Shown in pieces: positions 6,045-56,509 of a stretch of 64,000 nt of DNA. The notes beneath the pieces were generated by a model. The model did no database searches. It saw only the letters and a list, made by a program, of their open reading frames with translations, and had not been told where the DNA came from. This DNA comes from Alphaproteobacteria bacterium. GTDB taxonomy: Bacteria > Pseudomonadota > Alphaproteobacteria > DSM-16000 > Inquilinaceae. Positions within the stretch are counted from its first letter, which is position 1; each line of letters begins with the position of its first letter. A program made the translations under genes and the position numbers. The DNA lies in contig JANQIX010000026.1 in the NCBI GenBank assembly GCA_028281925.1, positions 62,001 through 126,000 on the forward strand. The letters run 5' to 3'.

Positions 6045-9000
6045 TTACCAGCCGCCGAAGTCGAACAGGATGGCGTCTGTGTCCGTGAAGTTCTGCAACC
6101 GCACCGAGCCCGTATCCCAGGGATGGTCGAACGTGATGACCGTGTCGAACCCGTCCTGTTGGATGGTTAGGTCATCCACGCTGTCGTAGCGCCAGCCCCA
6201 GCGTTTCTCGACGATGATCAGATCGCCGTCTTCCGCAGAATAGTCCGTGATGACATGGTGGCCGTCGACGCCGCCGTCCCGGCTGAAGTCGAACTTGTCG
6301 AGGCCGTCGCCGCCCTCCAGCACATCCTTGCCCCGATCGGCCCGCAGCCAGTCGTTGCCGTCGCCGCCCGACATCAGGTCGTTGCCCCAGCCGCCGACCA
6401 GCAGGTCGCTGCCACCGCCGCCGAACAGCTGATCGTCGCCCCGCTCGCCATAGAGCCGGTCATTGCCGCCCTGGCCGAAGACGACGTCATCACCGCTGTC
6501 GGCCGTGATCACGTCGCTCTTGCCGATGTCGGAGTTGGCCGCGTCGGTCCAGCGCTCCCAGTTGTCGCCGAAGATCACGTCGTCCCCGTTGAACTTGGAG
6601 CCGTCGATCCGGTCTCGGTCCGCCCGGCCTTCGTCCGCATCCGGACCGTCGCCGATGATCAGGTCGAACCCGGACCGGCCGGAGTCGATGTAGGACCGCC
6701 ACCAGCCGTGCGACTCGTACTGGCCCAAGACGACATCGGCCGAATGCGGCCGCCACACACCGAAATCAGCGGCGATGTCTTCGATGGACGCTTCCATCTT
6801 CCTCAGCTGGGTGCCCAGGCCGTCATCGCGCCACGCATCGGCATCCAGCAGATCGTCATCGATCCCGTTGACGGTGACGAACTCCAGGAACCAGTCCGGC
6901 ATCTCCGGCGCGATCGCCGACGGCGGGGGTACGGCATCTTCGAAGGGGGTCGACAGGTCCACGATCGCCACATCGTCGAAGCGGGCGCCGGCCGCGCCCC
7001 AGGCATAGACGCCGGCAGCCCCTTCGCCCAGGTCATGGTCTTCCAGGTCGTAGGCGAAGATCTCGTGGCCGTCGATCCAGGCCTGCATCTTCCCGTCCAC
7101 CCGTTCGGCCTTCAGGTGGAATTCGTCGTCGGGCGTGTAGACGGTGCGTACGCGGGCGAGATAGGTCTCGTACCCCTCAACCACCTTCACCAGCGTGATC
7201 AGGTTGGCCGAGGCATCGATCTCCAGCTTGTAGTAGTTGTCCTCGTCCACCCAATTCATCATGAAGCCGACGCCGCCGGCCGTGGGCACCTGGACGACCG
7301 CTTCGATCGAATAGTCGTCGATCGTCTCGTCACCCTCCCACAGGGCATAGGTGCCCTTGTGCAAGGCCGCGACACCGTCGCCATGGGGCGACCAGCCCCG
7401 CTGCCATGGGTCGCTGTTGGAGGCACCGGCCCAGTTCAGCTCGCGGCTGTAGGCGCCGGACTGTTCGACCAGAGCGCCGTCGACCACCGCCCAGTCGGCG
7501 GGGCCGCCGATCTCCGTCGTGTCGACGATGCGCCAGCCGTCGTAGTTGCCGTCTTCGAACTGGTCGGCCGCGATCAGGCGGTCACCCGACGCAACGGTGA
7601 CAACAACCTCGTCGGTGTCCGAATGGCTGCCGTCATCGAGGCTCAACGCGAACACGTTCCGGCCGGCCCAGGCCATGGTATCGGTGGCTAGGCCGCTGCC
7701 GGCATCCCCGGCAGGCCCTGTCCAGTCGGCCGCGGCGCCGTCGGCTCCGGTGGAGAGGTTGCCGTCGAGGCCCACGGTTTCGACCCCGTCGCCGTCGAAG
7801 TCGATCAACACCCGGTCGAGCCCGGCCTCTGCGTCCAGCTTTGGTGCGCGGACGACGATGTCGTCGAAGATCGCGCTCTTCTGGAAGGAGGAGTAGAGGC
7901 CGATAGTGCCGGCCCCCAGCGGGGCGGGATCCAGGACCCGGCCGCCGAACAGCGGCACACCGTCCAGCGACACGGCGATCTTGCCGCCCTCGATTGAGAG
8001 CTTCAGGTCGATCTCGTCATAGAAACGATAGCCGCCGCCCTCTTCCGCCAGAACGGTCTCCTCTCCGTCTTCCACGCGCACCAGCTTGCGCGTGTTCATC
8101 TGGCTGTCGAGCGTCAGCAGATAGTGGTTATCGGCATCCTGATAGCGGAAGGCCACGCCCATGGTGTCGTCGTCGAGCGACTTCAGGGTCGCTTCCAGAA
8201 CAAGGTCGGCCCAATCCCCCTCTTCCCAGAGGATCAGGTTGCCCTCGCCATTCGACTGGTCGAACAGGGCCCCTTCCGGCGCGTCCAGCCCGTCGCCCGG
8301 TGCGCGCGAGGCGGCGGAGCCTTTCACGAAGAACGGCGTGCCCGTGTCGGAGCCGAGGCGGATTTCCTCCAGCGTCGCCTGCCCGAAATCCAGCGCATCC
8401 GGCGCGCCGTCGAAGCTGAACTGGAAGGCATCCGCCGCCTGCGGCTCGGCCAGCGGCCCGTCCACATCGGCGGCGCCCAAGGCCAGAATGTCGGCATCCG
8501 ACAGCACATCCGACGTGAAGGCGAAGGCGTTGACGAACACTTCGCTGGTTTCGCCATCGTTGTCGGAGAACAACAGGAAGCCCTGGTCCGCATCGATGCG
8601 CCAGCGCGTACCGTCGGTGACGTCGCTGTCCACCGTCTGGGTGCCGACCAGCGCGCCGTTGATGTACTTGTTCAAGACCTGCGCATCGCCGTCGAGCGAG
8701 ACGGTGAACGCCACCCGGTTCCAGGCGTCGTAGGTGAACGGCCCGTCATAGGCGCCGGAGATGCCGATACCGCCGAAACCGCTGCCGCCATTGGCCAGGT
8801 ACAGTTCCCCATCGCCACTGTTGGTGATGTCGGTCTGGAAGAAGCTGGTCCAGGTGCCCTGCACGTCGGCGACATAGATGTCGTAGATCAGCGTGTATTC
8901 GTCGAAGGTGCCGGCCGCCTCCGGCGTCACCAGCAGGCCCTGGTTGGGCGACAGCGCCGGCACGCGCAGAACGCCCGCGGCCTCGCCTCCCGAACCTCCA

Positions 9001-12000
9001 CCGCCCACGGGCACCAGCGATACGGCCGGCGTGGCCAGCGTCGTATCATAGTCGGTGCCGGATTCCGAGCCGCCGTTGAAGTCGTCCCATTCGTCGGGAT
9101 CGGCCACGGCGAACACGCCGTCGGCACGCGTGAACTCGCCGCGGGCCTGGCCATCGGCAGAGGTCCAGAATTCCAGGTTGGTGAACGACCAGCCCCGCCA
9201 TTCCGTGGTTCCAGGCGGCGTGTTGGGATCCGTCTCAATGGTCCAGTCGGTCGGCGGTGTCTGCGTCCAGCCGAGGATGTCGATATTCTCGTCAACGGCC
9301 GGCTGCAGCGAGCCGGCAAGGCTGTTGAAGTCTTCCGCCAACAGCACGCTGCCGCCGGGGCCGGACAGCTCGACATTGTCGATCGCCCAGTACCAGTCGT
9401 TGCCGGCCTCGCTCATCCGCCAGAATACCTCCACGGTCTCGGCCGAAGCCGGCGCCAGGAAGTCGAGATCGATGCGGATGTTGCGGTTGTCGGTGTCGGT
9501 GGTCGTGGTGCCGTCCAGCAGCAGCAGTTCGGCCGGCTCGCCCCCGTCGAAAGACACCAGCACTTGGCCCGTCTGAAAGTCTTCGGGCCGCCAGTGGCTA
9601 TCGAACGACAAGGTCAGCGGGATCTGCGCCGCGCCCGAGATCGCGGGCAACGCGAAGCCGAGATCAGTGCCGATCTGGGTGAAAGAGACCTCTTGCCCTT
9701 CCGGCGGTCCCCAGCCTTCGGCGTCGCCGTCGTTGAAGGTGTCGACCAGCCAGGTGTCGTCCGTTTCCACGATCACGCGGATGTCGTCGCGGCTTTCCAC
9801 ACCCCGCGCCGTCTCCACCGTCAGCGTCAGGTCATGGACCCCGGCGCCGAGCGAGACCTGCACCGTCTCGCCCTCGCCCAGCAGGCGGCCGTCCTCATCG
9901 GTCCAACGATAGGCGGTGATGTCGCCCTGCGGGTCGTTGGTGTCGCCGGCGAACAGCGTGACCTCTGCGGTCTTCTCGCCAGCGTCGGCCTTGACCACCT
10001 GGTCGTCGCCCGCATCGGCGATGGCCTCCGCCGACCGCTCGCCGACCTCGACGTTGAAGTACGCCTCTTCATGGCCGACATACGGGCCGGTCAGGCCGTC
10101 GCGATCCAGCTCCGCCTTGTCGCGGAAGCCAGTGAAGTACTCGTCTAGCTCCGTGAAATAGGTCTCGGTGTAGAAGGCGTCGTTGGCCGGATCGATGGTC
10201 ACCAGCCGGATCGCGCCATTGCCGCCATTGCCGCCGCGCGCCGGATCGCCGGCACCGTTGGCCTCGCTCGACACGCCGTTCTGATAGTTCACCAGGAACT
10301 GGAAGACCGGGTTGCCGAAGTCGTTGTACGAGATGACCGTCTCGGCCCCATCGCCGAAGATGTGGCCACCCGCGGTGAACAGCACGTTGGGGTGCTTGGC
10401 CAGCGCTTCCCGCCACAGGGTCTCGCCGTCCCAGGTGCCCCGGGGGTCGTTCGTCAGCCCGTAGTCGTAGCCGGCCCCTTCGGCGTTCAGCGGTGCACCC
10501 AGGCTGTCGTGGCGGCCGTCGAAATTGCTGTAGGAGTGGGTGAGCACCATGGCCTTGCGGTCGCCATGCTTGGTCAGCACGTCGTCCGCCCAGCGCATCA
10601 CGTCGTCGCGCGGGCCGAATTCCAGGTTCAGGATGATCCAGCCGGTGCCGTCCGGCGCGTCCCAGAGATGGTAGTTGTTGTCGTAGCGGCCGGGTTCCTG
10701 GTCGTAGACGCCAGCGAAGGTCGGGTCCGCCGACATGTAGGTGGGGCTGAAGGCGTCGTTGTAGGGCCCTGTTGTCCGGACATTGGCCGACCCACCGTCG
10801 CCGATATCGTGGTTGCCCGGAAGCACCGAGAACGGGATGCCGGCGTCGCGCAGGATGTTCATGGCATCCAGCGCGATCTGGAACTGGCCCGGGGTCGCGG
10901 TCTGCGTGATGTCGCCGACATGGGTGACGAAGCCGATCTTCTTGTTGTCGGCATTGTCCGCCATCCACTGGGTCATGGCGGCGAAGGTGGGCGTGATGGA
11001 CCCGTTGGACGTGTAGTCCTGCGTGTCCGGCATGATGGCGATGGTATAGGCGCCCTCGCCCGCCACACGCACCCGGACATCGTCGGTCAGTTCGCGGCCC
11101 AGCCCGTCCGTCGCCGTGATCGTCAAGTCCGAGACGCCAAGTTCGCCGAAGCTCAGCGTCAGCACGCCGTTCTCGATCACCGCCGCAACGGCCTCGCCGT
11201 TGCTGCCGGTGACGGCGTAATTGCCCGTGCCCGCGCCGAACACATCCTCAAGGTTGAAGGTCACCGGGTCATCGCCGGTGGCCACCAGCATGTCCTTGAT
11301 CGGCCCCGGGATCTCCGGCTCGATCAGCGAGGACTCGTCGGTCACCCCGACGCCGGCAAAGCCGAATTCCGAAGCCGGTGCATAGCCGTCAAAGCCGAGC
11401 TGCAGCACGTCACCGGTGCCGGCCGGGGGATCGAACGGGCCATTCCCGTCCGCGGTGCCCAGGGCCGCGACTTCGCTCTGCGACAGCGCCCGCGTGGCGA
11501 GGCCGAAATGGGCGAGGTATCCGGTCGAGGTCTCGTTGCTCTCGTCGGCCAGGATCAGGAAGCCGTCGGTGCCGGACAGCGTGAACCGGTCGGCGCTGAC
11601 GGTCTGGGCGTCGAGGAAGACGCCGTCGATGTATTTCGAGAGGGTCGCGGTGCCGTCGCCCTGGTCCGCCACGGTGATGACTATACGGCTCCACGTGTCC
11701 GTCGGCACGGTGCCGTCATAGTCGCCGTTGATGCCCAGGCCACGATCACCGCGGATGAACAGCTCACCGTCGCCCGAATTCGACGAGTCGGTCTGCAAGA
11801 GCGCGTGCCAGCCGAAGGGCACGTCGTCGACCCGGATGTCCCACACGGCCGTGTAGGTCGAAAGATCGCCCTGCCCGCCCGGCAGCGACACCAGAATGCC
11901 TTCGGCAGGGTTGTAGGCGGCATAGTCGAGCACGGGCACGTCCTCACCGCCGGGCCCGGTGATGCCGAACTGCGAGGCAAAGGCGATCCGGCTGTCGCCG

Positions 12001-12722
12001 ATATCGACCGGTGTCCGATAGCCATTGCCTTCCAGGATCACCGCCGCGTCGCCATAGCGGGGTGCGATGTCCTCGCCGGTGAAATCGATCTCCAGCGCAG
12101 AGAACGACGGGGCTGCCGGAAAGAACCCGGCCGCATCCGGCGTCGGCACGGTGGCGAGGATGCCCAACACTTCCGGCGGCGTCGGTACCTCTTGCGTGAA
12201 GAAGACGGACGAAACCAGGCCCGGCGCCGTCTCGCCGTCATTGTCCGTGAACAGCCGCAGGCCCGTATCCGGATCGATCGCCCAGCGCGCGGTCTGGCCC
12301 AGGTTCTGCTCACCCACCAGCGATCCGTCGACGTATTTGCGCAGGACCGTGTCGCCGCTCTCCACCGTCACCGTAACGACCAGGCGGACCCATTGGTCGT
12401 AAGCGATGCTGCCGTCATAGACGCCGGAAATGCCGATGCCGGCGGTGCCGTCGCCATTGTCGCGCAGGAACACCTCGCCGTCACCGTCGCCGGTCTGCAG
12501 CAGCGAGGTGAAACTGCCTGAAGGCTGTGGGATGTAGAAGTCGAGGCCCAGCGCCCAGCTGGAAATCGTCGACCCGGAGACCGACCCGCCCGGCACGATG
12601 GTGACGGACTGGTCCGACCCGAAGGCCGGGAAGCTCAAAACGGAAGGATCGACGCCGCCGATGTCCGGCGCACCGAAATCGCTCGCCTGACCAAGACCCA
12701 CGTTCCCAAGCTGCTTGACCAT
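6045..12722 (-). CDS. Giant secreted RTX protein with LamG-like modules and a calcineurin-type phosphoesterase
   Basis: 2225 residues, the largest gene here. Domains in order: two LamG/concanavalin-like modules (about 50-200 and 270-430); a metallophosphoesterase (about 555-800) with PDTQD, THVGDIT, PGNHDIGDG, LTHSY and GGHIFGDG; a PKD-like module (about 895-985); a third LamG (about 1260-1410); two further carbohydrate-binding-like sandwich modules separated by another PKD-like part; and C-terminal RTX calcium-binding nonapeptides (about 2045-2145, such as GGGGSDLLVGGWGNDLMSGG). There is no N-terminal signal peptide; the RTX tail implies type I secretion, but no TISS genes are in view. Likely an extracellular, polymer-attached phosphodiesterase or phosphatase. 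The ATG at 12722 faces the LysR gene. Architecture is seen; substrate is inferred. Confidence 0.86.
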   Translation of the reverse strand: MVKQLGNVGLGQASDFGAPDIGGVDPSVLSFPAFGSDQSVTIVPGGSVSGSTISSWALGLDFYIPQPSGSFTSLLQTGDGDGEVFLRDNGDGTAGIGISGVYDGSIAYDQWVRLVVTVTVESGDTVLRKYVDGSLVGEQNLGQTARWAIDPDTGLRLFTDNDGETAPGLVSSVFFTQEVPTPPEVLGILATVPTPDAAGFFPAAPSFSALEIDFTGEDIAPRYGDAAVILEGNGYRTPVDIGDSRIAFASQFGITGPGGEDVPVLDYAAYNPAEGILVSLPGGQGDLSTYTAVWDIRVDDVPFGWHALLQTDSSNSGDGELFIRGDRGLGINGDYDGTVPTDTWSRIVITVADQGDGTATLSKYIDGVFLDAQTVSADRFTLSGTDGFLILADESNETSTGYLAHFGLATRALSQSEVAALGTADGNGPFDPPAGTGDVLQLGFDGYAPASEFGFAGVGVTDESSLIEPEIPGPIKDMLVATGDDPVTFNLEDVFGAGTGNYAVTGSNGEAVAAVIENGVLTLSFGELGVSDLTITATDGLGRELTDDVRVRVAGEGAYTIAIMPDTQDYTSNGSITPTFAAMTQWMADNADNKKIGFVTHVGDITQTATPGQFQIALDAMNILRDAGIPFSVLPGNHDIGDGGSANVRTTGPYNDAFSPTYMSADPTFAGVYDQEPGRYDNNYHLWDAPDGTGWIILNLEFGPRDDVMRWADDVLTKHGDRKAMVLTHSYSNFDGRHDSLGAPLNAEGAGYDYGLTNDPRGTWDGETLWREALAKHPNVLFTAGGHIFGDGAETVISYNDFGNPVFQFLVNYQNGVSSEANGAGDPARGGNGGNGAIRLVTIDPANDAFYTETYFTELDEYFTGFRDKAELDRDGLTGPYVGHEEAYFNVEVGERSAEAIADAGDDQVVKADAGEKTAEVTLFAGDTNDPQGDITAYRWTDEDGRLLGEGETVQVSLGAGVHDLTLTVETARGVESRDDIRVIVETDDTWLVDTFNDGDAEGWGPPEGQEVSFTQIGTDLGFALPAISGAAQIPLTLSFDSHWRPEDFQTGQVLVSFDGGEPAELLLLDGTTTTDTDNRNIRIDLDFLAPASAETVEVFWRMSEAGNDWYWAIDNVELSGPGGSVLLAEDFNSLAGSLQPAVDENIDILGWTQTPPTDWTIETDPNTPPGTTEWRGWSFTNLEFWTSADGQARGEFTRADGVFAVADPDEWDDFNGGSESGTDYDTTLATPAVSLVPVGGGGSGGEAAGVLRVPALSPNQGLLVTPEAAGTFDEYTLIYDIYVADVQGTWTSFFQTDITNSGDGELYLANGGSGFGGIGISGAYDGPFTYDAWNRVAFTVSLDGDAQVLNKYINGALVGTQTVDSDVTDGTRWRIDADQGFLLFSDNDGETSEVFVNAFAFTSDVLSDADILALGAADVDGPLAEPQAADAFQFSFDGAPDALDFGQATLEEIRLGSDTGTPFFVKGSAASRAPGDGLDAPEGALFDQSNGEGNLILWEEGDWADLVLEATLKSLDDDTMGVAFRYQDADNHYLLTLDSQMNTRKLVRVEDGEETVLAEEGGGYRFYDEIDLKLSIEGGKIAVSLDGVPLFGGRVLDPAPLGAGTIGLYSSFQKSAIFDDIVVRAPKLDAEAGLDRVLIDFDGDGVETVGLDGNLSTGADGAAADWTGPAGDAGSGLATDTMAWAGRNVFALSLDDGSHSDTDEVVVTVASGDRLIAADQFEDGNYDGWRIVDTTEIGGPADWAVVDGALVEQSGAYSRELNWAGASNSDPWQRGWSPHGDGVAALHKGTYALWEGDETIDDYSIEAVVQVPTAGGVGFMMNWVDEDNYYKLEIDASANLITLVKVVEGYETYLARVRTVYTPDDEFHLKAERVDGKMQAWIDGHEIFAYDLEDHDLGEGAAGVYAWGAAGARFDDVAIVDLSTPFEDAVPPPSAIAPEMPDWFLEFVTVNGIDDDLLDADAWRDDGLGTQLRKMEASIEDIAADFGVWRPHSADVVLGQYESHGWWRSYIDSGRSGFDLIIGDGPDADEGRADRDRIDGSKFNGDDVIFGDNWERWTDAANSDIGKSDVITADSGDDVVFGQGGNDRLYGERGDDQLFGGGGSDLLVGGWGNDLMSGGDGNDWLRADRGKDVLEGGDGLDKFDFSRDGGVDGHHVITDYSAEDGDLIIVEKRWGWRYDSVDDLTIQQDGFDTVITFDHPWDTGSVRLQNFTDTDAILFDFGGW

Positions 12723-52498: not shown

Positions 52499-53286
52499 CA
52501 GATTATCCCCATCATGCCTTCGAAGTCTGAAGAAGACTTCACCGAGGTTTCGTACAGCACCTTCGCGCCGACGACGAGCCGCTCTCTGAACCGGAACCCA
52601 TGCAGATGCGCCATGTCGGATTAGAGCTCAAGTGCCGCCAATGCCCTTGAGGGGGCCTCAGGTTCAGGAACTGCCGCACTTCGATCCCGCGTGGTTCATG
52701 ACCGGAGGCTGGGGCGCTCCGGACGCATCTCGCCACTCGCAGCAGGCGACGTCGTGCCAACACCGGTCGTCCCAGGCATCCGACGTTCAAGTCCGGAACC
52801 GTCCCTGAGCGGTCGGCTGGGCAACGTCCTCGGAGACTGACAGCCTTACCCACAGCTGCGGCCAGTCGGTGTTCTGCCACTCGTGATCCGAGACCGTCAT
52901 CCCCAGCCCGTCAAGCTCAACGACGTCGACCGGCAGGCTTGGCTTGCTCTCCCCTCGGATCGATGATCTCTACGCCCCGTACCCGGCCGCGACTGACGCT
53001 GACGTTCCCCGGGATCGCGGGTGACCTTGAACGTCGGGCACCTTATTGATGCCCGGTTTGGACCTTAAGACTGTCTGCCGCAGCCCGTACCAATTGCCAA
53101 TTCGAACTCTTGCTTCGACTATAGCCGCCGATGTTCGGCCCTCCGGGAGTTGCAGAGTGAATCAGCCCGACGCCTGATCAACCCACCGCGCATGCCCCGT
53201 TGAAGCGGCCGTTCCCTCCGACCTCGCCCATGGCCCCTCCTGATGGCGGCCCACCCGTGTCCGAAGTTCTTGAAGGAAGATCTGCC
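52499..53286. other. Gene-poor stretch with possible decayed coding remnants
   Basis: 788 bases beside the GMC gene. On the minus strand, 52787 to about 53035 can be read as a protein-like sequence only by changing frame once near 52950: SVSRGRVRGVEIIDPRG in one frame and LPVDVVELDGLGMTVSDHEW in the other, stopping at 52787. A short frame MAHLHGFRFRERLVVGAK starts at 52614 and overlaps the GMC start out of frame. No repeat or transposase is recognised. Confidence 0.35.
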
Positions 53287-54192
53287 ATGTCCCGCGATCA
53301 CAGTGACCGTCGCCCGACCCTCCCCTCCGCTTCGTCCGATGGCGTTCCGCCGGATGTCCTTCAGCGCCTGGCGTCCGGCGGTCCCAGCGTTGGGCGCCGG
53401 CCTTTGGGGGCGGCGGCGTTGCGCGCGCTGGCGACCATCTTTGTGTTCGCCACACCGATCCAGCCAGGCGTCGCCCAATCCCCAACGCTGCGCGGCTGCA
53501 CCCTGACGGAGGAAGAGTTCCGGGAACTCATTGGCGATGACGAAGCGACGTTCCGCAGCAGCATGGTGTTCGTCATGGACGACGGCACGCTGGTCAGCGA
53601 CACCTCCGGCGATCCTCGGCTGGACGCCGCCTTTGGACAGTTGCTGGCGGATCTTGCTACGAGAGTCCAGGTCCGTCCTGGCTTCGGCTTCTTCGACGAC
53701 AGGGGCAGCCCGAATGCGTTTGCGACGACCTACACGCTCATGCCCAACACCCAGGGCACGGTGGTCATCGGGACCACATTGATGAATGACTATTTGCGCA
53801 ACCCGGAATTCCGGCAGCATGGCGACCTACTGCTCATGGCCGTCTGCGCGCACGAGTTCGGCCACATCAAGCAGTATTTCCACCAGCCCAACCTGGGACT
53901 GTACGATCGCCTGGTCAGCATGCACCCAACGGTGAAATTCCTGGAGCTGCACGCCGACTTTCTGTCCGGCTACTATATGGGCACGCGCGGGTCCCAGTTC
54001 TCGGACGAGCAGCTGGTGGTCATCGGCCGGGGCTATGAGGCTATGGGCGACATCTACTACAACGACCCCAACCACCACGGCACCAATGCCGAGCGGATCG
54101 CCGCGATCGAGAACGGCTACCTCATGGGCTCACTGACGGGTGGGGGCATCGACGACGCTATCGAGGCCGGCCTTTACTATCTTCGCGCCTAA
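53287..54192 (+). CDS. Secreted or membrane-anchored HExxH metalloprotease-like protein
   Basis: 301 residues. ATG 53287 follows GAAGGAAGA; a hydrophobic segment (about 43-60, LGAAALRALATIFVFATP) acts as signal after an unusually long polar leader. The zinc site is HEFGH (189-193) and a likely third ligand is in ELHAD (220-224); the preceding GTVVIGTTLMNDYLR is typical of M48-like peptidases. It is far from the standard HtpX/LoiP families in the rest. Stands alone. Peptidase activity is inferred from the motif only. Confidence 0.75.
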   Translation: MSRDHSDRRPTLPSASSDGVPPDVLQRLASGGPSVGRRPLGAAALRALATIFVFATPIQPGVAQSPTLRGCTLTEEEFRELIGDDEATFRSSMVFVMDDGTLVSDTSGDPRLDAAFGQLLADLATRVQVRPGFGFFDDRGSPNAFATTYTLMPNTQGTVVIGTTLMNDYLRNPEFRQHGDLLLMAVCAHEFGHIKQYFHQPNLGLYDRLVSMHPTVKFLELHADFLSGYYMGTRGSQFSDEQLVVIGRGYEAMGDIYYNDPNHHGTNAERIAAIENGYLMGSLTGGGIDDAIEAGLYYLRA

Positions 54193-55275: not shown

Positions 55276-56205
55276 TCACTCCACCCGCATCACATAGACG
55301 ACGGTGACATGCGGCGGCAGCACGCTGGCGTCATGTGTGTCGTCGCCGGCCGGCTCGGTCGCGACGGTCTCGGTTTCGGCGGCCTCATCCCCCGCTGCCG
55401 GTACGGTGACGTCATGTGCATGACCGCCGGTCTCCAGTGTGGTCGCCTCCACCTCGGCACCGGCTTCGTCGCCGCCCACCAGGAACAGCCCTCGCAGATC
55501 CGGTGTGGCCTGGCCCGCAAGCGGGCCGCTTTCGATGGTCCGGCCGTCGCAGATCACGAAGCCTTCCGGCACCGTTCCGCCATCAGAATAATCCGGATGC
55601 CAGGGCACGATCGCACCGACGGGCACCAGGCCGCTGGCCACCATGTCACGGACACCGGCTGACATCTCATCCAGCGCCTCCGCCGTAGCGGCCGCCGCCA
55701 GCCCTGCGGACAGCGCCTCAAGCTGCCCGTCGCGCGCGCCTGCGGCTTCGGCCAAAGCCGCCTGATCCGCGCTCAGCTGGTCCACCGCGGCGCCCACGGC
55801 CTCTGCGGTCTCGCCCAGGCTCGTGACATCGGCCACGACAGCCTCCAGACCGGCTTCCGTCGCAGCGAGGCCGTCGCCCAGTTCGCCGACCGTCTGCTCC
55901 AGCGCTGCCATCGCCTCGTCCTGCACGGCCGACCCGTCGGAGACAAGCGCGGCGAGCTCCGCAACGCTATCCGTGAGGCCGCCAAATTCCTCGGCAGGAA
56001 CGGTCGTCACGACGGACTCTTCCATGGCTGCGACACGATCCGCGATGTCGGCCACGCCGGCGTCCGTCAGGTCCGATACGGTATCCTCCAATGTGTCGAC
56101 CCGGCCTGCGACATCCTTTGGCACCGCCGTGGCCGCCACATAACCGGACAGCGCCAACGCCGCCACGCCAGCCACGAGCGCAAATTTGCTCAGCCCATCC
56201 GCCAT
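55276..56205 (-). CDS. Membrane-anchored coiled-coil protein with a C-terminal phage tail-collar-like domain
   Basis: 309 residues. One N-terminal membrane helix (about 7-27), a long Ala/Glu/Val-rich coiled coil (about 30-190, repeats such as VDTLEDTVSDLTDAGV), then a domain like the phage tail-fibre collar (about 194-309): VPVGAIVPWHPDY, PEGFVICDGRTI, TPDLRGLFLVGG, GGHAHDV and the closing PPHVTVVYVMRVE. Tail-collar domains trimerise. The ATG at 56205 lies before the helix. No other phage gene is nearby. Probably a trimeric cell-envelope stalk; function unknown. Confidence 0.75.
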   Translation of the reverse strand: MADGLSKFALVAGVAALALSGYVAATAVPKDVAGRVDTLEDTVSDLTDAGVADIADRVAAMEESVVTTVPAEEFGGLTDSVAELAALVSDGSAVQDEAMAALEQTVGELGDGLAATEAGLEAVVADVTSLGETAEAVGAAVDQLSADQAALAEAAGARDGQLEALSAGLAAAATAEALDEMSAGVRDMVASGLVPVGAIVPWHPDYSDGGTVPEGFVICDGRTIESGPLAGQATPDLRGLFLVGGDEAGAEVEATTLETGGHAHDVTVPAAGDEAAETETVATEPAGDDTHDASVLPPHVTVVYVMRVE

Positions 56206-56509
56206 CGATTCGTCCTTCTTTCGTGAAAAGCCCAGATGCCGGGCCGGGATGATACCGTCGGCCGAGAGGTCCGCAACGGCGGCGGCATAATCGTTCGCAG
56301 GGTGCCGCCCATCAACCTTGCATTCCGTTAACGGCCACCGCAGCATTCACCGGCGACCGGCCGCGGCCTGCCGCAATATCCGACGATGACAGCCGACCGG
56401 GGCGGACGCGATCCGCGGCGACCGGGATCGGCAGTCGCTCCGCGGCGACGGTGGCCAAGAGCTGCGAGACCGCCCCTATGCCCGTTTCCGTTAGCGCGAT
56501 CGCCTGACC
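56206..56509. other. Divergent intergenic stretch before the ClC gene
   Basis: 304 bases between the tail-collar gene (leftward) and the ClC gene (rightward). No convincing small gene, hairpin or palindrome was seen; it should carry both promoters. Confidence 0.4.

Follow-up and report, generated by a model that had tools for sequence, protein, structure and literature searches.

The gene at the centre of this analysis, in a window of 64,000 nucleotides (the whole stretch of DNA that was analysed), encodes a membrane-directed protein with a long helical stalk and a C-terminal tip that is related to the receptor-binding (collar) domain of phage short tail fibres, as profile, BLAST and fold comparisons agree. 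With moderate confidence, the product is interpreted as a stand-alone trimeric stalk of the cell envelope, which is most likely anchored in the inner membrane, extends across the periplasm and presents a repurposed tail-fibre tip. A preliminary description of this DNA had suggested that a tail-fibre tip was moved to the cell envelope, and this suggestion was well supported by the architecture of the protein, its chromosomal context, conserved synteny and purifying selection.

Architecture of the protein and its collar-type tip

The coordinates and reading frame in the preliminary description were right, with the ATG at 56205 and the stop at 55276, and the features of the gene are listed in Table 1. 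The encoded protein is very acidic (56 D/E versus 9 K/R) and contains a single cysteine, at aa 219.

Table 1. Features of the collar-type gene in the window.
Feature	Positions	Strand	Remarks
Whole gene	55276..56205	-	309 aa, ATG start
Shine-Dalgarno sequence AGAAGGA	56213..56219	-	7 nt upstream of the ATG; read from the sequence
N-terminal hydrophobic segment, aa 8-27	56125..56184	-	Hydropathy; uncleaved anchor or signal peptide
Stalk, aa 28-191	55633..56124	-	Alpha-helical, heptad periodicity
Helix break in the stalk, near aa 67-70	55996-56007	-	AlphaFold2
Collar-type (short-tail-fibre receptor-binding) domain, aa 192-309	55279..55632	-	Sequence, profile and fold comparisons
HxH motif (HAH, aa 262-264)	55414..55422	-	Aligned with HKH of T4 gp12 and HxH of most relatives

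A coiled coil of about 160 residues had been proposed for the stalk, and both a heptad period and a confidently predicted helix bore this out. The periodicity of large hydrophobic residues over aa 28-188 peaked at 3.5 residues; shuffled versions of the whole stalk equalled the observed periodicity in 0.3% of trials, and for aa 72-188 none of 1502 shuffles did so. AlphaFold2 placed helices at aa 30-66 and aa 71-172, with pLDDT values of 80-96 over most of residues ~80-170. At 1.5 Å per residue, 160 helical residues give ~24 nm, and we infer that the predicted helix assembles into a coiled coil of about that length, with parallel and probably three strands.

The C-terminal collar-type domain named in the preliminary description was recovered by matches to PHROG, phage and PDB sequences, and the HxH motif as well as the last strand of the domain are present, with the Pfam cut-off being missed. 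When the window protein alone was searched, it matched phrog_1800, 'tail collar fiber' (E 2.3e-9), and the short tail fibre 9cuy in the PDB (E 8.4e-5), and tblastn against phages matched its last 125 residues to a tail fibre of Synechococcus phage B23 (E 3e-9). The Pfam family PF07484 (Collar) matched aa 197-225 only, with 16.2 bits (E 0.01), and since this score is below the curated gathering cut-off of 24 bits, the protein does not formally qualify for the Pfam name. Alignment A3 comprises 10 relatives with the window protein as the first row, and nine of its ten rows matched PF07484 at E<=1 (best 7.7e-5). The A3 profile matched 9cuy (E 6.4e-12) from within the helical stalk of that fibre through the tip, T4 gp12 (1ocy, E 4e-6) to the end of the domain, and gp37 (E 2e-4), and it placed the HAH in the same column as the HKH of gp12. 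The relatives largely share a pattern of VPxGxIxPW, CDG, TPDL, F..G, HxH and LPP, followed by a final strand of the type Y(V/I)M(R/K)V.

Fold comparison of the AlphaFold2 model of aa 194-309 with T4 gp12 (1ocy) gave a VIA Z of 6.0 and an rmsd of 3.2 over 58 residues (34% identical), and comparison of the model with the gp37 tip (2xgf) gave a Z of 5.2 and an rmsd of 4.2 over 61 residues (33-34% identical). The monomer model is weak at aa 241-297 (pLDDT < 50), the Foldseek E-values were not significant, and a single-sequence model of the collar domain reached a pLDDT of 37. With Z values in the middle range and a poorly modelled stretch at aa 241-297, the fold comparison is regarded as supporting evidence, not as decisive. 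Two sets of matches were set aside. Helical entries in the VIA list, such as 6dlc, reflect long helices only, and the similarity to GhpA, the grappling-hook protein of Aureispira (E 1.5e-5), adds up from repeated motifs of ~20 residues, none of which is significant alone.

Genomic context and relatives carrying the same tip

The collar gene stands alone, with the DUF882 gene on one side and ClcA, from which it is divergent, on the other; the neighbours encode a GMC oxidoreductase, a DUF882 peptidase-like protein, a ClC channel, a UvrD helicase and a PrmA-like protein. The preliminary description had seen no other phage genes around it, and none were found among roughly 30 tested window proteins (neighbours and ORFs), where phage structural, packaging and integration genes were all missing. 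The PHROG matches of the neighbours were those of the DUF882 gene (peptidase/endolysin-type), a methyltransferase and a helicase, which are common cellular families, with no structural family among them. Pfam scans of larger ORFs predicted in the rest of the window gave housekeeping, transport or metabolic genes or no match, and the one Baseplate_J match in the genome is on another contig. Two other window genes were recorded in passing: one at 53200-54192 (+) encodes a 330-residue protein that has no Pfam match and carries an HEFGH motif resembling that of zinc proteases (AHEFGHIKQYFHQ), and one at 6045-12722 (-) encodes a large protein of 2225 residues, probably secreted or located at the surface, with a laminin-G-like domain and RTX calcium-binding repeats.

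An orthologue with 90% identity and the same flanks was found in G001 (contig JANQQD010000228), the only other genome of the genus among those examined, and no orthologue was found in the other examined genomes of the family or order. A match in G023 was rejected, as it covers the coiled coil only. The dN/dS ratio between the window gene and its orthologue was 0.14 overall, 0.16 for the stalk and 0.11 for the tip; from this one pair, the gene is under purifying selection. In G007 a pentapeptide-repeat gene and a GGDEF gene occupy the slot between DUF882 and ClcA, so the collar gene was apparently either gained here as a single gene or lost elsewhere. The record that carries the orthologue (L033, JANQQD010000228.1) is titled 'Anaerolineae bacterium' (IP29b_bin.19), yet it belongs to the same genus, with flanking proteins 97% identical, and is probably a mislabelled bin.

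These results bear on whether the gene is a stray phage gene or a functionless prophage remnant, as its kinship with phage fibres and its patchy distribution would allow. This explanation is highly improbable in view of the purifying selection, the intact frame and the good ribosome site, the synteny conserved in a second genome, the absence of phage genes among the tested window proteins, and the phage tblastn search, in which no record matched even 80% of the tip domain.

The architecture also recurs in several bacterial lineages, where bacterial proteins that reuse this tip form a scattered and sparsely described group. The genome scan identified proteins with an anchor or signal peptide, a variable stalk and a collar tip in another alphaproteobacterium, Silicimonas, Bacteroidota, Auribacterota and others. 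The alphaproteobacterial protein (L037, the same protein as in G376; 181 aa, with an anchor, a short stalk and the tip) and the Silicimonas protein (L041, with a strong anchor, a linker and the tip) have clear uncleaved-type anchors, and L034, L036, L038 and L042 have a signal-peptide-like N-terminus and longer stalks. L037 and L041 share with the window protein the N-terminal anchor, an HxH-bearing collar tip and much the same C-terminal strand, but their stalk or linker is only ~30-45 residues long, with no long coiled coil. In G376 a RelE-like / HTH toxin-antitoxin-like pair immediately precedes the anchored collar gene (L032 2487-3840).

Scanning IMG/VR with the window domain alone yielded no relatives, and scanning with alignment A2 yielded 24. 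Two of the IMG/VR loci (L044 and L049) end in the same collar-type domain, and a short contig (L043 4-744), possibly from a eukaryotic giant virus, encodes a strong membrane segment upstream of such a domain, so that the plan of anchor and collar probably occurs in a virus too. Weak class matches L024, L025 and L027 were discarded for lack of a collar-like open frame. The tree of collar domains was mostly unresolved: the window protein and L033 had no supported sister, bacterial and viral rows were mixed, and the only supported group was that of contractile-injection-system fibres (92/91). For this reason neither the donor nor the direction of transfer can be named.

Other collar-type genes were also observed. 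G066 contains a contractile-injection-system-like locus (L011 7247-12729, -) with three consecutive paralogous fibre genes, each with a collar-type tip, and G626 has three matches of the collar type with spacing similar to the G066 fibres. The genome of the window itself has a second collar gene (L013 8779-9288, -; G000:C75:41985-42152), whose product of ~169 aa scores 91.8 bits to PF07484, has a signal-peptide-like start and is encoded beside ABC-transporter-like genes with no obvious phage genes.

Location in the envelope and possible function

The N-terminal helix was described beforehand as an anchor, and the single hydrophobic segment (best 19-mer Kyte-Doolittle mean 1.96), which is identical in sequence in the orthologue, is anchor-like, a signal peptide also being possible. 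The helix would be directed to the inner membrane via the Sec route, and in a diderm bacterium such a helix leaves the protein attached to the inner membrane on its periplasmic side, or free in the periplasm if it is cleaved. The bacterium was assigned to the Alphaproteobacteria, which are diderm, on the basis of record titles of relatives in the same class (L037/G376). The case of cleavage corresponds to a soluble periplasmic or released trimer without an anchor. The short n-region with one Lys, the h-region of ~14 residues and the possible signal-peptidase sites VAA↓T and ATA↓V are consistent with such a cleaved Sec signal peptide, but the relatives of the same plan, L037 and L041, have long, uncleavable-looking anchors, and we consider a soluble trimer an appreciable though minority possibility.

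With the anchor in the inner membrane, the tip is most likely periplasmic, near the outer membrane or peptidoglycan. The inner-membrane anchor and the 24 nm rod would keep the tip inside the cell, near the outer membrane, which weighs against reading the protein as a phage-receptor decoy or surface adhesin; either role would need an export route through the outer membrane, or cleavage. A surface-exposed trimeric adhesin, exported or cleaved and secreted so that its phage-like tip binds cells or surfaces, has parallels in Bdellovibrio, which uses phage-fibre-like trimers with varied tips, the mosaic adhesive trimer (MAT) fibres, on prey (PMC10769870), and in the relatives L034, L036 and L042, with their signal peptide and long MAT- or S74-like stalks. 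However, inspection of the 309-residue sequence found no lipobox, the Pfam scan of the protein found no domain beyond the weak Collar match and therefore no autotransporter barrel, and no export genes were seen among the immediate neighbours, which makes surface exposure unlikely.

Even less probable is an anti-phage function, in which the tip would mimic that of a phage and occupy or mask phage receptors, or the protein would block DNA entry from the inner membrane like superinfection-exclusion proteins. The phage type of the tip agrees with this explanation, and the genus-restricted occurrence as a single gene would fit an accessory defence gene, but the receptors of short tail fibres sit on the outer face of the cell, and no known defence family is found among the immediate neighbours.

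The preferred reading remains that of a bacterial envelope fibre that is encoded on its own and has its anchor in the inner membrane. Its C-terminus would be a domesticated receptor-binding domain of a phage short tail fibre, which may close the trimer and present the binding tip; the HxH motif would probably hold a metal, as in T4 gp12/gp37, and the tip may bind a carbohydrate or an envelope component in the periplasm. The domain appears to have been drawn from a pool common to phages, contractile injection systems and bacterial proteins. A more speculative version, doubtful as it stands, is that the anchored trimeric rod spans the periplasm and its phage-type tip grips the outer membrane or cell wall from inside, as an inward-turned tail fibre serving as an envelope tether.

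The gene suggests that the tips with which phage tail fibres bind their receptors are reused by bacteria in free-standing envelope proteins, mounted on stalks of quite different kinds. With tip, stalk and anchor encoded by one compact gene, each of them can be tested separately. If the tip does work from the periplasm, a phage adhesion fold would have been put to a new use.

Comparison with known systems

The phage short tail fibre (T4 gp12; 1ocy, 1pdi, 9cuy) shares with the window protein a helical stalk directly before the series VP(I/V)GA(V/I)(V/I)PW...C(D/S)G...PD.RGLF...C-terminal strand. In the window protein, however, an N-terminal membrane segment replaces the baseplate-attachment part, the collar domain is shorter (118 aa) and there are no phage genes nearby. 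Fibres of contractile injection systems (G066, G626; Photorhabdus 8on5) have the same collar-type tip, the G066 tips being 22-30% identical to that of the window protein and 8on5 being among the fold-comparison matches of the AlphaFold2 model; they differ in having no membrane anchor and, in G066, in lying beside baseplate-like genes. Proteins of the COG4675 'microcystin-dependent' type, such as the product of the second collar gene of this genome, are likewise exported bacterial collar proteins outside prophages, but the latter reaches 91.8 bits to Pfam Collar and has ~170 aa and no stalk.

The MAT fibres of Bdellovibrio are, like the window protein, bacterial and chromosome-encoded, with a phage-fibre-like build and exchangeable C-terminal tips, whereas the described MATs are far longer, most have beta-helical stalks, and they end in tips of S74, TNF-like and other folds (PMC10769870). 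The window protein has an alpha-helical stalk with heptads, and the Pfam scan found no S74 or other strong domain in it; by analogy, it may nevertheless work on a similar idea.

According to the preliminary description, no account of this arrangement was known. This stands for the anchored collar protein, of which literature searches found no description, and the words 'collar' and 'coiled' are absent from the MAT paper (PMC10769870). It does not hold for the general plan, which recurs in bacteria and has a precedent in the MAT fibres, and collar-domain genes outside phage particles were noted earlier, for example as a paralogous group in Solibacter (PMC3174227). In conclusion, bacterial reuse of phage-fibre-like proteins is already known, and what is new here is the specific combination.
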